From NCBI RefSeq assembly GCF_023721415.1, contig NZ_JAMQVC010000002.1, forward strand, positions 124,001 through 188,000: a stretch of 64,000 bases of DNA. Direction: 5' to 3'. The stretch is from Galbibacter mesophilus (GTDB taxonomy: Bacteria > Bacteroidota > Bacteroidia > Flavobacteriales > Flavobacteriaceae). The translations under genes and the position numbers were made by a program. The notes beneath the pieces are model-generated. The model did not search any database. It was not told the DNA's origin and was given only the letters and a program-made list of their open reading frames with translations. Shown one piece after another: positions 16,664-60,410 of this stretch (positions are counted from its first letter, which is position 1; each line of letters opens with the position of its first letter).

Positions 16664-16696
16664 AAACCCCAAAGGTTTTTAAAACCTTTGGGGTTT
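16664..16696. terminator. Bidirectional terminator-like hairpin
   Basis: AAACCCCAAAGGTTTT and its complement AAAACCTTTGGGGTTT form a nearly perfect hairpin. It lies between the DUF192 gene and the HerA-like gene and could act for the lgt-DUF192 flow or opposite traffic. The remaining gap 16530-16827 holds one REP-like repeat at 16761-16783 and no gene. Confidence 0.6.
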
Positions 16697-16760: not shown

Positions 16761-16783
16761 AAAGGCCTTCGACAGGCTCAGGC
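16761..16783. repeat. REP-like palindromic repeat, solo copy
   Basis: TTCGACAGGCTCAGGCTGACA lies within this stretch; on the opposite strand it reads TGTCAGCCTGAGCCTGTCGA, which shares its TGTCAG start, GAGC core and GTCGA end with the inverted repeats around the GIY-YIG gene. No inverted partner is seen nearby. Confidence 0.5.
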
Positions 16784-16827
16784 TGACATTTTAGTTTTTT
16801 GGGATCTCTTAAGTTAAGATTTCGGAA

Positions 16828-37758: not shown

Positions 37759-38943
37759 ATGAGAACAGCATATATAGTAAAAGCATACAGAACAGCCGTA
37801 GGGAAAGCCCCACGCGGTGTATTCCGATTTAAAAGACCAGATGAATTGGCCGCAGAGACCATTCAATACATGTTGGATGAAATTCCAAATTTCGATAAAA
37901 CCCGTATCGATGACGTAATGGTAGGTAATGCCATGCCAGAAGCTGAACAAGGTTTAAATGTAGGACGATTAATCTCTTTAATGGGATTGAAAATTGAAGA
38001 TGTACCTGGTGTTACAGTAAACCGTTATTGTGCTTCAGGAATCGAAACTATTGGTATGGCAACAGCTAAAATACAATCGGGAATGGCTGATTGTATTATT
38101 GCTGGTGGAGCGGAAAGTATGAGTTACATCCCAATGGGTGGATACAAGCCAGTTCCAGATTACCAAGTAGCTAAAAATGGTAATGAAGATTATTACTGGG
38201 GCATGGGGTTAACGGCAGAAGCTGTTGCGAATGAATATGAAATTTCGCGTGAAGATCAAGATGAATTTGCTTTTAACTCGCATCAAAAAGCATTGAACGC
38301 TATAAAAGAAGGTAAGTTCGATAAGCAAATTGTACCCATAACCATTGATGAAACCTATGTGGATTCAAACGGTAAAAAAGCTACTAAATCGTATACAGTA
38401 GATACAGACGAAGGACCACGTGCTGATACTTCCAAAGAAGTATTGGGCAAGCTAAGACCTGTTTTTGCTGAAGGAGGTAGCGTAACGGCTGGTAACTCTT
38501 CGCAAATGAGTGATGGTGCAGCATTTACATTAGTGATGAGCGAAGAAATGGTAAAAGAGCTTAATTTGGAGCCTATCGCTCGATTGGTTTCGTATGCAGC
38601 TGCCGGTGTGCCGCCAAGAATTATGGGTATCGGTCCGATTAAAGCAATTCCAAAAGCACTGGATCAAGCAGGATTGAAACTAGATCAAATTGATTTAATT
38701 GAGTTGAATGAAGCTTTTGCTTCTCAATCGCTAGCGGTAATTAGAAAACTAGGATTAAACCCAGACATCGTAAATGTAAATGGTGGGGCCATTGCCTTAG
38801 GACATCCGCTGGGTTGTACTGGAGCCAAGCTTTCAGTTCAACTATTCGATGAAATGAGAAGAAGAGAAAGCAAGTATGGTATTGTTACCATGTGCGTAGG
38901 AACCGGTCAAGGAGCCGCTGGGGTTTATGAGTTTTTAAATTAA
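37759..38943 (+). CDS. Acetyl-CoA acyltransferase (3-ketoacyl-CoA thiolase)
   Basis: A 394-residue thiolase that performs the last beta-oxidation step. The acyl-accepting cysteine is C91 in [12 protein letters not shown]; further motifs are [16 protein letters not shown] and the second catalytic cysteine in [11 protein letters not shown]. The length is typical. It follows the bifunctional enzyme gene by 140 bp. The next beta-oxidation gene, acyl-CoA dehydrogenase, is separated from it by a 374-bp GIY-YIG cassette. Confidence 0.95.
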
Positions 38944-39002
38944 AAGCCCTTGTAAATCTCCCCTTACGGGAGACTTTTGATGTGTTGAAATTGTAAAAAA
39001 GA

Positions 39003-39025
39003 TGTCAGATCGAGCGCAGTCGAGA
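39003..39025 (+). repeat. Left inverted repeat of the GIY-YIG cassette
   Basis: A partly palindromic 23-mer with core TCGAGCGCAGTCGA. It differs at one base (A39009) from the reverse complement of the right repeat. Related copies lie at 53223-53245 and, interrupted, at 56025-56067 and 56099-56142. Confidence 0.85.
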
Positions 39026-39039
39026 TCTCATTCTCTGTT

Positions 39040-39351
39040 ATGAATGTTTATTACGTTTATATTTTAAAATGTTCAGATGGTTTGCTTTATACGGGGATGA
39101 CAAATAATATTTCTCGCAGAATTGCGGAACACAGCGAGGGAAGAAATAAAAATTGTTTTACATATAAGAGAAGACCTGTTGAATTATTATTCCATCAGTG
39201 TTTTAACTATGTTAATCAAGCTATTTATTTTGAAAAGAAAATAAAAAGATGGAGTGCTAAAAAGAAACTAGCATTAGTAAATGGTGAATTTGATATGCTA
39301 CAAATATTATCTGAATGTAGGAATGCCTCGCACTATAAATATAAACTGTAG
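39040..39351 (+). CDS. GIY-YIG nuclease domain protein
   Basis: A 103-residue stand-alone GIY-YIG protein. The paired strands read YYVYILKCSDGLLYTGMTNN (V-Y-I and Y-T-G in place of GIY and YIG), the catalytic arginine lies in ISRRIAEH and the catalytic glutamate in YFEKKIKRWS. Residues that make the single-domain nuclease are all present, so it may be active. Such small proteins occur in many copies in Bacteroidota genomes. No DNA-binding extension is present. It lies inside a pair of inverted repeats between the thiolase and acyl-CoA dehydrogenase genes, unlike the rest of the operon in role. Confidence 0.9.
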   Translation: MNVYYVYILKCSDGLLYTGMTNNISRRIAEHSEGRNKNCFTYKRRPVELLFHQCFNYVNQAIYFEKKIKRWSAKKKLALVNGEFDMLQILSECRNASHYKYKL

Positions 39352-39353
39352 GG

Positions 39354-39376
39354 TCTCGACTGCGCTCGACCTGACA
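39354..39376 (-). repeat. Right inverted repeat of the GIY-YIG cassette
   Basis: TCTCGACTGCGCTCGACCTG is the start of this 23-mer, which is the inverted match of the left repeat. It begins 2 bp after the nuclease stop codon and ends 41 bp before the acyl-CoA dehydrogenase start. Confidence 0.85.
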
Positions 39377-39416
39377 GGAAATTATTGATTAAAATTTATT
39401 ATAAGAAATTGATACC

Positions 39417-41222
39417 ATGGAAACAGAAGCTAAACAAGAATTAACAAGAGGTGGTCAGTTTTTGGTGAAGGAAACCAAAGCTGAAGACGTATTTACTCCA
39501 GAGGATTTCTCGGAGGAGCAAAAAATGATGCGTGATTCTGTAAAGGAATTTGTAGATCGCGAAATTTGGCCAAACAAAGAACGTTTTGAACAAAAAGATT
39601 ATGCGCTTACGGAAGAAGTAATGCGTAAGGCTGGAGAACTCGGACTTTTAGGTGTAGCTGTGCCAGAAGAGTATGACGGACTAGGAATGGGGTTTGTAAC
39701 AACCATGTTAGTTTGTGATTATATTTCTGGAGCTACAGGATCGGTAGCAACTGCTTTTGGAGCACACACAGGAATTGGTACCATGCCAATTACCCTTTAC
39801 GGAACCGAGGAGCAAAAGAAAAAATACGTGCCAAAACTTGCTACGGGTGAGTGGTTTGGTGCTTATTGTTTAACAGAGCCTGGAGCAGGATCAGATGCGA
39901 ACAGCGGTAAGACTAAAGCCGTTTTGTCTGATGATGGAAAGTATTATTCGATAAGCGGACAAAAAATGTGGATTTCTAATGCGGGATTCGCAAATGTATT
40001 TATCGTATTCGCTAGAATTGAAGATGATAAAAACATTACCGGCTTTATTGTAGAAAACGATCCTGAAAATGGAATTTCACTAGGAGAAGAAGAAAAGAAG
40101 CTCGGAATTCACTCTTCATCTACGCGTCAAGTTTTCTTCAACGAAACGAAAGTTCCTGTTGAAAATATGCTTTCAGAAAGAGGAAACGGATTTAAAATTG
40201 CGATGAACGCGCTGAATGTTGGTCGTATTAAGTTGGCAGCTGCTTGTTTAGATGCACAAAGAAGGGTAATTACCGAAGCTACAAAATATGCTAACGATAG
40301 AGTTCAATTTAAGACACCAATTGCTCAATTTGGAGCGATTAAATCTAAAATTGCTGAAATTGCAACGGCTACCTATGTAGACGAATCTGCTTGTTACCGT
40401 GCTGGTAAGGATATTGAAAATAGAATTGCTATCCGTCAAGAAGAGGGAAGTTCACATCAAGATGCAGAATTGAAAGGTGTTGAAGAATACGCTATAGAAT
40501 GTTCTATTCTAAAAGTGGCGGTTTCTGAACATTGCCAGAAAACTACAGATGAGGGAATTCAGATTTTCGGTGGAATGGGGTTCTCGGCAGACACTCCAAT
40601 GGAATCTGCTTGGAGAGATGCCCGTATTTCTAGAATTTATGAGGGTACCAACGAAATCAACCGTATGTTATCAGTAGGGATGCTAATTAAAAAAGCAATG
40701 AAAGGTCATGTAGATCTTTTAGGTCCTGCAACTGCGGTTAAAGATGAATTAATGGGTATTCCATCTTTTGATACACCGGATTATTCTGAGTTGTTTTCAG
40801 AAGAAAAAGAAATGATTGGAAAGCTCAAAAAGGCATTTTTGATGGTTGCAGGAAGCGGTGTTCAAAAATACGGACCTGATTTAGAACAGCACCAGCAACT
40901 TTTAATGGCTGCAGCAGACATATTGATTGAAATTTATATGGCAGAATCGGCTATTTTGAGAACGGAAAAGAATGCTAAACGTTTTGGAGAAGAGAGCCAG
41001 AAAGAGCAAATAGCTATGGCGAAGTTAAATCTTTTCCACGCGGTTGAGAAAATCCAGACTCGTGGGAAGGAAGGAATCTCTTCTTTTTCGGAAGGAGATG
41101 AGCAAAGAATGATGTTGATGGGATTAAAGCGTTTCACTAAGTATGCAAACCTTCCAAATATCATTGAATTACGTAATACAATTGCTGAAAAAGTAATTGC
41201 TGAAAATCAATACTGTTTCTAA
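39417..41222 (+). CDS. Acyl-CoA dehydrogenase
   Basis: A 601-residue FAD enzyme for the first oxidation step of beta-oxidation. Signatures are YCLTEPGAGSDANSGKTKAV (key part LTEPGAGSDA), the FAD/substrate strand SGQKMWISNAGFANVFIVFA (key part QKMWISNAGFA), IQIFGGMGFSADTPMESAWRD (key part FGGMGFSADTPME) and RIYEGTNEINRM with the catalytic glutamate. It has an additional C-terminal helical domain of about 170 residues, as in very-long-chain-type dehydrogenases. It ends the operon, followed by a terminator at 41277. Confidence 0.94.
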   Translation: METEAKQELTRGGQFLVKETKAEDVFTPEDFSEEQKMMRDSVKEFVDREIWPNKERFEQKDYALTEEVMRKAGELGLLGVAVPEEYDGLGMGFVTTMLVCDYISGATGSVATAFGAHTGIGTMPITLYGTEEQKKKYVPKLATGEWFGAYCLTEPGAGSDANSGKTKAVLSDDGKYYSISGQKMWISNAGFANVFIVFARIEDDKNITGFIVENDPENGISLGEEEKKLGIHSSSTRQVFFNETKVPVENMLSERGNGFKIAMNALNVGRIKLAAACLDAQRRVITEATKYANDRVQFKTPIAQFGAIKSKIAEIATATYVDESACYRAGKDIENRIAIRQEEGSSHQDAELKGVEEYAIECSILKVAVSEHCQKTTDEGIQIFGGMGFSADTPMESAWRDARISRIYEGTNEINRMLSVGMLIKKAMKGHVDLLGPATAVKDELMGIPSFDTPDYSELFSEEKEMIGKLKKAFLMVAGSGVQKYGPDLEQHQQLLMAAADILIEIYMAESAILRTEKNAKRFGEESQKEQIAMAKLNLFHAVEKIQTRGKEGISSFSEGDEQRMMLMGLKRFTKYANLPNIIELRNTIAEKVIAENQYCF

Positions 41223-53222: not shown

Positions 53223-53292
53223 TGTCAGGTCGAGCGGAGTCGAGACCTTCTTTTGAAGGAATAACTGTTAAAAACCTCTCAACTCCGTTTGA
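53223..53292. repeat. Short nuclease-less inverted-repeat element in the esterase 5' region
   Basis: Left arm at 53223-53245 matches the GIY-YIG terminal repeat at 22 of 23 positions (TGTCAGGTCGAGCGgAGTCG, continuing GAGA). The right arm TCTCaACTCCGtTtGA (53277-53292) is a degenerate inverted partner, 13 of 16 matching. Both arms share the same C-to-G change, which supports pairing. The 31-bp centre has no gene. Confidence 0.6.
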
Positions 53293-53329
53293 GGGAATAA
53301 TAAGAATTAAACGTTCTTCTAAAAACTAT

Positions 53330-60164: not shown

Positions 60165-60410
60165 ATGGTTTTAAATCTGTTTTCAACGGATTTAAATTAA
60201 AAGGGAATACGGTGAAATTCCGTAGCTGTTCCCGCAACTGTAAACTTTATGCTGAGCGCGTTCCTTCTGAACTCGTTTCAGTATCTTTTAAAATTTGCTT
60301 TATGCTTTTTTAAAAGTGTGTTGTTTACTTCATAGAAACCACTGTTTTGAAGAAAATTTCGGAATGGGAAGGTGAAGCAACATAAAAGTAAGTCAGGAGA
60401 CCTGCCATAA
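60165..60410 (+). ncRNA. Cobalamin riboswitch
   Basis: Aptamer signatures in order: GGGAATACGGTGAAATTCCG with GCTGTTCCCGCAACTGTAA (60203-60243), and the B12 box region AAGTAAGTCAGGAGACCTGCC (from 60386, ending 60405). Between them is an enlarged peripheral arm with a 9-bp direct repeat CTTTATGCT (60245 and 60298). It lies in the btuB 5' leader on the plus strand. It should turn off btuB when adenosylcobalamin or another corrinoid is plentiful. Confidence 0.9.

Follow-up and report, generated by a model that had tools for sequence, protein, structure and literature searches.

Genes for tyrosine transposases associated with repetitive extragenic palindromes (REPs), known as RAYTs, are bordered by inverted REPs, and many doublets of the palindrome occur without a gene. 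RAYTs are described as HUH enzymes that go with GTAG-tagged REPs (PMC3116915, PMC2817692, PMC8266576). A further REP superfamily carries CGTC or TGTC tags, and the survey by Di Nocera et al. 2013 (PMC3733652) reports that no transposase was found for it. That survey places CGTC- or TGTC-tagged palindromes in five phyla, mostly in α-Proteobacteria and with Bacteroidetes among the hosts, and gives as their traits a terminal unpaired CGTC, TGTC or CCTC tag, a predominance of head-to-head dimers and a dispersed, mostly intergenic location. The four published families have a stem of 8–9 bp, a loop of 4–5 nt and a CCA-like tail. Here we describe a 374-bp cassette in a 64,000-nucleotide stretch of the Galbibacter mesophilus genome (the window), in which the gene of a stand-alone GIY-YIG nuclease lies between two inverted, TGTC-tagged palindromes.

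A family of GIY-YIG enzymes has reportedly been linked to a repeat before. Ssn (Chenal et al. 2025) is reported to cut single-stranded DNA site-specifically and to have a cognate repeat in hundreds of copies in Neisseria; a role in transformation is said to have been reported as well. The window gene resembles Ssn in being a stand-alone GIY-YIG nuclease with a dispersed repeat that matches the gene's own arms and is presumably the enzyme's cognate site. The link to CGTC REPs, the doublets, the insertion of cassettes and a clade-by-clade matching are not known to belong to the Ssn work, and among the literature matches listed none joins GIY-YIG nucleases to REP palindromes. Like a RAYT–REPIN pair, the cassette has its gene between inverted REPs and gene-less doublets elsewhere, but it is no such pair: the protein is of the GIY-YIG type and not an HUH enzyme, and the tags are TGTC/CGTC and not GTAG. 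With the CGTC superfamily it shares the terminal unpaired TGTC on both arms and the predominance of head-to-head dimers (16 of 20 exact sites, and two more with a variant partner), and a close fit is also seen in many of the hairpins that adjoin homologues in other phyla, for example CGTC-ATTCCCGCGAAGGCGGGAAT. The window type differs in its 5+2 bp stem, 2-nt GA bulge and 6-nt loop; since the stem is shorter and bulged and the loop longer, we call it CGTC-REP-like and place it outside the four published families. We consider it reasonably likely that the protein is a palindrome-specific nuclease with a cognate REP element, that the palindrome is cut and that hairpin-bounded units spread.

The cassette and its palindromes in one genome

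The cassette (39003–39376) is framed by 23-nt arms at 39003–39025 and 39354–39376, which are 22/23 complementary (96%), stand 328 nt apart and leave 2 bp between the stop codon and the right arm. The open reading frame list gives a frame of 103 aa from ATG to TAG, and the protein matches Pfam GIY-YIG with an E-value of 1.2e-16. Tyr7, Tyr17, Arg27, His31 and Glu65 (Y7, Y17, R27, H31, E65), which we take to be the catalytic positions, are all intact, and their columns are conserved in 35 or 36 of the 36 clade-A proteins, the window protein included. By sequence the closest solved structures are the UPF0213 proteins 1zg2 (E 8.7e-12) and 1ywl (E 4.2e-8), both GIY-YIG proteins named hypothetical in the PDB; PHROGs and NCBIfam gave 0 matches to the protein. 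Rfam at its gathering threshold gave 0 matches in 38000–41000, and an RNA element was rejected as the identity of the cassette on this ground. The insert is intergenic and separates a thiolase gene upstream from an acyl-CoA dehydrogenase (ACAD) gene downstream, all three on the + strand; the names of the two neighbours were recognised from the translations, without a family search. The nuclease gene between inverted 23-mers with one base different, the right repeat 2 bp past the stop codon and the split of thiolase from ACAD had all been read from the letters in an earlier note, and the coordinates and the Pfam match agree with it.

Both arms have the same layout. The TGTC tag lies outside, and the hairpin then runs from five outer pairs through GA, a loop of six bases (GCGCAG), TC and a GA that stays unpaired to the five bases that close the stem; the right arm lacks the fifth outer pair. 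The sequence TCGAGCGCAGTCGA with at most 2 mismatches has three matches in the window, compared with a shuffle mean of 0.10, and 0 of 100 shuffles reach three. In the 3.77-Mb genome the 14-base core occurs at 20 sites and the reversed-pattern control at none. Sixteen of these sites form eight head-to-head doublets with both arms exact (starts 47–50 bp apart), two are the cassette arms, and two are single exact arms whose partner is present with a variant stem. TGTC points outward on 12 of the 16 doublet arms, the remaining four having TTTC, AGTC (twice) and TGTT, and gene-bearing and gene-less units therefore have the same kind of ends. Across all fetched loci the tag of type-A arms (the window type) is TGTC in 120 and CGTC in two of 158. 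The outer stems vary in sequence yet pair: among 126 tagged arms 83.8% of stem positions are paired, against 56.5% (maximum 61.4%) when the 3′ stems are dealt out anew. The REP-like pattern that the earlier note proposed thus stands as far as the gene-bearing unit and the gene-less doublets with the same ends are concerned; its further step, mobilisation by the nuclease, is taken up below as a conditional claim.

The genome also holds a second GIY-YIG gene (G000:C1:498717-499081; loci L001 and L047), which lies between CTGAACTTGTTTCAG palindromes. The sequence CTGAACTNGTTTCAG has four exact matches in the genome; two are the arms around this second gene and one is an untagged match in the window. 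The eight doublets (L009, L011, L013, L017, L020, L023, L025 and L027) have a common spacer, and several doublets of the genome lie inside a unit of ~150 bp whose outer repeats resemble GAATATCCGTAAT / ATTACGGATATTC. Most matches of the genome G006 to doublet units cover little beyond the doublet itself.

Nuclease and palindrome across genomes

Among 149 genomes of the same bacterial family, 73 have a homologue at E ≤ 1e-9. The 117 loci taken gave 116 homologue rows and, after 24 rows had been left out as duplicates or for having fewer than 70 or more than 160 residues, 92 proteins in the tree. One of five palindrome types lies within 250 nt of 75 of the 92 genes, and on both sides of 56 of those. 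By eye, tag and layout are common to type A (GA-GCGNAG-TC-GA), type B (GA-GCTTG-TC-GA) and type E (CGAGTG...TATCGAGA); the other two, C and F, are simple hairpins. On the protein tree, which has few columns and many weak forks, the five labels change six times; the least possible is four and the shuffled mean is 34.6. Block inheritance of a cassette would give clustering as well, so the result shows that palindrome and enzyme travel together and not which acts on which. Labelled genes of at least two types occur in 13 of 51 genomes (one gene counted twice, unlabelled genes excluded), and each such gene has a single type nearby, which speaks against a mere genome background.

Copy number follows the gene. 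Copies of the type-A core GAGCGNAGTCGA were counted across these 149 genomes. Where the best homologue reaches E ≤ 1e-37 (22 genomes, G. mesophilus included), every genome has 7–147 copies (median 33.5), and the 76 homologue-free genomes have a median of one. The Spearman correlation between copy number and homologue is 0.66, compared with 0.07 for the reversed pattern, and the totals are 1728 and 34 matches, respectively. A similar test of type B (at least six copies in 6/6 versus 7/143 genomes) was not used as evidence; it is partly circular because its six genomes had been selected for the palindrome adjoining the gene.

Small GIY-YIG genes of the genus are also found next to tRNA genes, at ten loci with one tRNA gene each: tRNA-Leu (L043, L048, L051, L053), tRNA-Arg (L041, L045), tRNA-Met (L056) and tRNA-Phe (L037, L042, L044). 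By eye, several of them are accompanied by a partial copy of a tRNA together with a palindrome like CCTGCCGGCAGGCAGG. These are possibly a second, tRNA-directed kind of element.

Homologues in CGTC-rich groups outside the family were examined because of the 2013 survey of tagged palindromes (PMC3733652). A plasmid collection has 33 records with a homologue, and 13 were fetched. By script, seven of the 13 have hairpins on both sides whose tags point outward (Azospirillum lipoferum, Novosphingobium, Shinella, Rhizobium CIAT894, two Sphingobium and Aeromonas). At the Sinorhizobium meliloti plasmid locus one hairpin is found by script and a second, with an extra base, by eye; at the Planktothrix and Spirosoma loci the palindromes on both sides were recognised only by eye; and the Photobacterium locus has a palindrome downstream only, in the opposite orientation. 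For Sinorhizobium C101 and Rhizobium K1/93 the script found no [CT]GTC REP, and upstream of the Sinorhizobium C101 gene a hairpin with a different tag can be seen. Over 50 kb of the A. lipoferum plasmid the only ATCCCCGC-type hairpins are four that form two doublets adjoining the gene. A doublet search over 50 kb of S. meliloti 1021 pSymB gave five hairpin-like matches, none of the REP type by eye. On Planktothrix plasmid p1 (L093) the GIY-YIG gene and its repeats lie between an MmeI-type restriction gene and the DISARM gene drmA.

Species genomes were then scanned with a five-protein alignment, which gave 589 loci. The best 80 of them come, by record titles, from α-, β-, γ- and δ-Proteobacteria, Nitrospirae, Planctomycetes, Ignavibacteria, Omnitrophota, candidate phyla and others. 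Profile comparison puts this branch and clade A in the same protein family (probability 99.7, E 5.6e-26). Of the 80, 74 have 200 nt available on each side and could be tested; six are short. A [CT]GTC hairpin with the tag outward lies within 200 nt on the left at 33, on the right at 31 and on both sides at 23 of the 74. In 24,844 random spans the figures are 2.2% left, 2.75% right and 0.1% both, and in a stricter control, 631 neighbouring genes of at least 150 aa held to the same hairpin rule, they are 31, 35 and 4. Six control tags gave hairpins on both sides at 0/74 loci, and a tag-free test for inverted repeats was positive at 39 of 74 loci versus 5 of 2306 spans. In the adjoining 200-nt bins there are 0.48 and 0.49 hairpins per locus in the expected orientation and 0.16 and 0.23 in the opposite one (doublets), compared with 0.02 far away. 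One such pattern, counted in 12 of the 80 genomes, has 2–73 copies in 11 and none in one, with 0 for the reversed control. The association of GIY-YIG genes with palindromes is thus general. The earlier note had proposed to look for the palindromes beside GIY-YIG genes in other genomes, and its idea survived this search, with the same layout within the family and in other phyla. That relatives of the enzyme in many bacterial groups lie between palindromes of like design suggests that this class of genomic repeat is what such enzymes act on, and they may help to spread it.

Junctions with and without the cassette were compared at several places. At thiolase–ACAD, where 13 of 19 loci at the ACAD gene were examined, the nearest relative (G005, ACAD 96% identical) retains a decayed 3′ half of the gene and the right arm. 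The gap is 13–33 bp in four genomes (G002, G007, G008 and G010), and gene-less gaps of 68 bp and 119 bp are found in G009 and G004. Five relatives (L181, L182, L183, L187 and L188) carry a different small gene there, and the junction is an insertion hot spot; the small gene product in G006 is a 23S rRNA IVP-type protein (PF05635), and the other four are alike by eye. The A. lipoferum cassette, located at sufB–sufC, is absent in the other five Azospirillum records examined, and the G. mesophilus doublet L020, between genes that look by eye like ilvN and ilvC, is absent in 6/6 congeners. Relatives of the nuclease gene occur at other genomic places in the congeners. A copy of ~160 bp next to the cassette of S. 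meliloti Ak57 has lost the middle, retains the two arms and the last codons of the gene, and resembles a transposon-derived miniature. The comparison of empty and filled sites suggested in the earlier note therefore yields both states, at thiolase–ACAD and in Azospirillum, with inexact ends.

A probable palindrome-specific nuclease and its alternatives

If the nuclease and its REP belong together, the cassette would be the gene-bearing member of a REP-type palindromic element family and the doublets its gene-less units. The nuclease would recognise its own tagged hairpin (TGTC plus the imperfect stem-loop), which borders the gene and is dispersed in the genome. HUH-type REP enzymes act on single strands; together with the tagged, strand-specific hairpin this makes single-strand cutting the likeliest mode, and the nuclease probably acts on single strands. 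The palindrome would be nicked most likely while single-stranded, during replication or DNA uptake. Host repair or re-ligation after the cut could then give a low-frequency spread of hairpin-bounded units.

Several points weigh against this reading. Palindrome cleavage, single-strand action, mobilisation and the steps past cutting are what we infer from the arrangement of genes and repeats. GIY-YIG enzymes hydrolyse DNA and are not known to carry out strand transfer; because of this hydrolysis, spread would need ligation or repair by the host. None of the five types lies near 17 of the 92 family proteins, and the strict tagged hairpin is missing on one or both sides at 51 of the 74 loci. Three of the five query proteins came from palindrome-flanked genes, so the 80-locus figure describes one GIY-YIG branch. 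All five outer pairs are formed in just 35 of the 126 tagged arms, and DNA-energy folding of single arms is no better than that of shuffled sequence; the stem is therefore backed by co-variation and not by energy. Ten of the 76 homologue-free genomes have at least five type-A core copies. G. mesophilus itself has 26 exact copies of the type-B sequence TGAGCTTGTCGAAG, and the clade-B nuclease was not found in that genome; lost enzymes or cross-use would explain such orphans. The junctions tried (thiolase–ACAD, sufB–sufC and L020) are too diverged to give a target, a duplication or exact ends. Finally, the cassette lacks the GAATATCCGTAAT outer repeats, and cassette and doublets may therefore not move as one kind of unit.

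The main rival keeps the palindrome-specific nuclease and drops the movement: the enzyme would cut incoming or replicating single-stranded DNA and tune recombination or uptake, and the repeats would spread in some other way. Flanks, copy number and clade match fit this equally well, and so do orphan repeats without a matching nuclease. The homologue of Neisseria gonorrhoeae, presumably Ssn itself, is 32% identical over 76 aa (E 7e-10), lies within an array of CGTC-ATTCCCGC-type palindromes and may be an enzyme of this sort. We nevertheless regard cutting without movement as unlikely for the cassette, in view of the like termini of gene-bearing and gene-less units, the internally deleted cassette of S. 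meliloti and the presence or absence of cassettes at orthologous junctions.

GIY-YIG enzymes include homing endonucleases, and the window protein could in principle break both strands at empty palindromes or junctions, with repair copying the cassette in. The GIY-YIG genes of the genus that stand beside tRNA genes with apparent partial tRNA copies would suit such a process. Homing copies into allelic sites, yet the doublets are dispersed at many sites of the genome, and we think it improbable.

An HUH transposase of the RAYT/IS200 type might instead move the palindromes, the GIY-YIG gene merely using them. A Y1 (HUH) transposase match is indeed present in 6/7 genomes of the genus, but a palindrome of one of the five types lies within 400 nt of 0/12 Y1 loci (12 fetched of 13 matches), GTAG hairpins flank 0/74 homologue loci, and the 2013 survey mentions no tyrosine transposase flanked by CGTC repeats (PMC3733652). 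Palindromes driven by a RAYT are thus unsupported, and this origin is very improbable.

That small genes merely land among palindromes as passengers, as the hot spot at thiolase–ACAD with a different small gene in five relatives and the intergenic position common to REPs and small mobile genes might suggest, is the least probable explanation and was rejected, along with a genome-background association, since hairpins flank both sides at 23/74 loci versus 4/631 genes, other tags give 0/74, palindrome type tracks protein clade even within one genome and copy number tracks gene presence.

Window features and implications

The gene-less relatives that the earlier note had seen elsewhere in the window correspond to a same-type doublet and a single sister-type palindrome (Table 1). 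The single palindrome is an exact match with tag and stem, yet with ≤2 mismatches allowed a match turns up in 62 of 100 shuffles, so the shuffle control alone leaves room for chance. The untagged match at 60267, equalled in 43 of 100 shuffles, was dropped as chance. At 16664–16696 lies an inverted repeat, perhaps a terminator, whose 16-nt arms pair perfectly across a gap of 1 nt.

Table 1. The cassette, its neighbouring genes and related palindromes in the window
Feature	Coordinates	Strand	Details
Left REP arm	39003..39028	+	TGTC tag 39003-39006, imperfect hairpin AGATC-GA-[GCGCAG]-TC-(GA)-GATCT
GIY-YIG nuclease gene	39040..39351	+	103 aa; Pfam E 1.2e-16; conserved columns
Right REP arm, inverted	39351..39376	-	TGTC tag 39376-39373, AGGTC-GA-[GCGCAG]-TC-(GA)-GACCC; last base overlaps stop codon
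Thiolase gene, context	37759..38943	+	translation
Acyl-CoA dehydrogenase gene, context	39417..41222	+	translation
Degenerate same-type doublet, no gene	53223..53299		left-arm loop GCGGAG; right arm decayed, by eye
Single sister-type palindrome	16764..16788	-	TGTC-AGCCT-GA-GCCTG-TC-GA-AGGCC; type found beside clade-B GIY-YIG genes in relatives

The CGTC/TGTC repeats were left without an enzyme by the 2013 survey (PMC3733652). The nuclease tracks such repeats at the level of clades, within individual genomes and across other phyla, and their origin thereby becomes testable with one protein and one oligonucleotide. If the reported Ssn work holds, cleavage is already established for some members, which leaves the question of whether it brings about spread. 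The window gene would then be a relative of a known kind of nuclease, its novelty would be lower, and the new part would be the link to CGTC REPs, doublets and cassettes together with the clade-by-clade matching.

A wider proposal, which we advance tentatively, is that the CGTC/TGTC REP superfamily as a whole, the dRS3-type repeats of Neisseria included, has small stand-alone GIY-YIG nucleases as its missing enzymes. These nucleases would form a second, HUH-independent REP route, in which nuclease and hairpin diversify together, cassettes give rise to doublets and spread proceeds through single-stranded hairpins in many phyla. If true, the REP way of life would have arisen with two unrelated nuclease folds.
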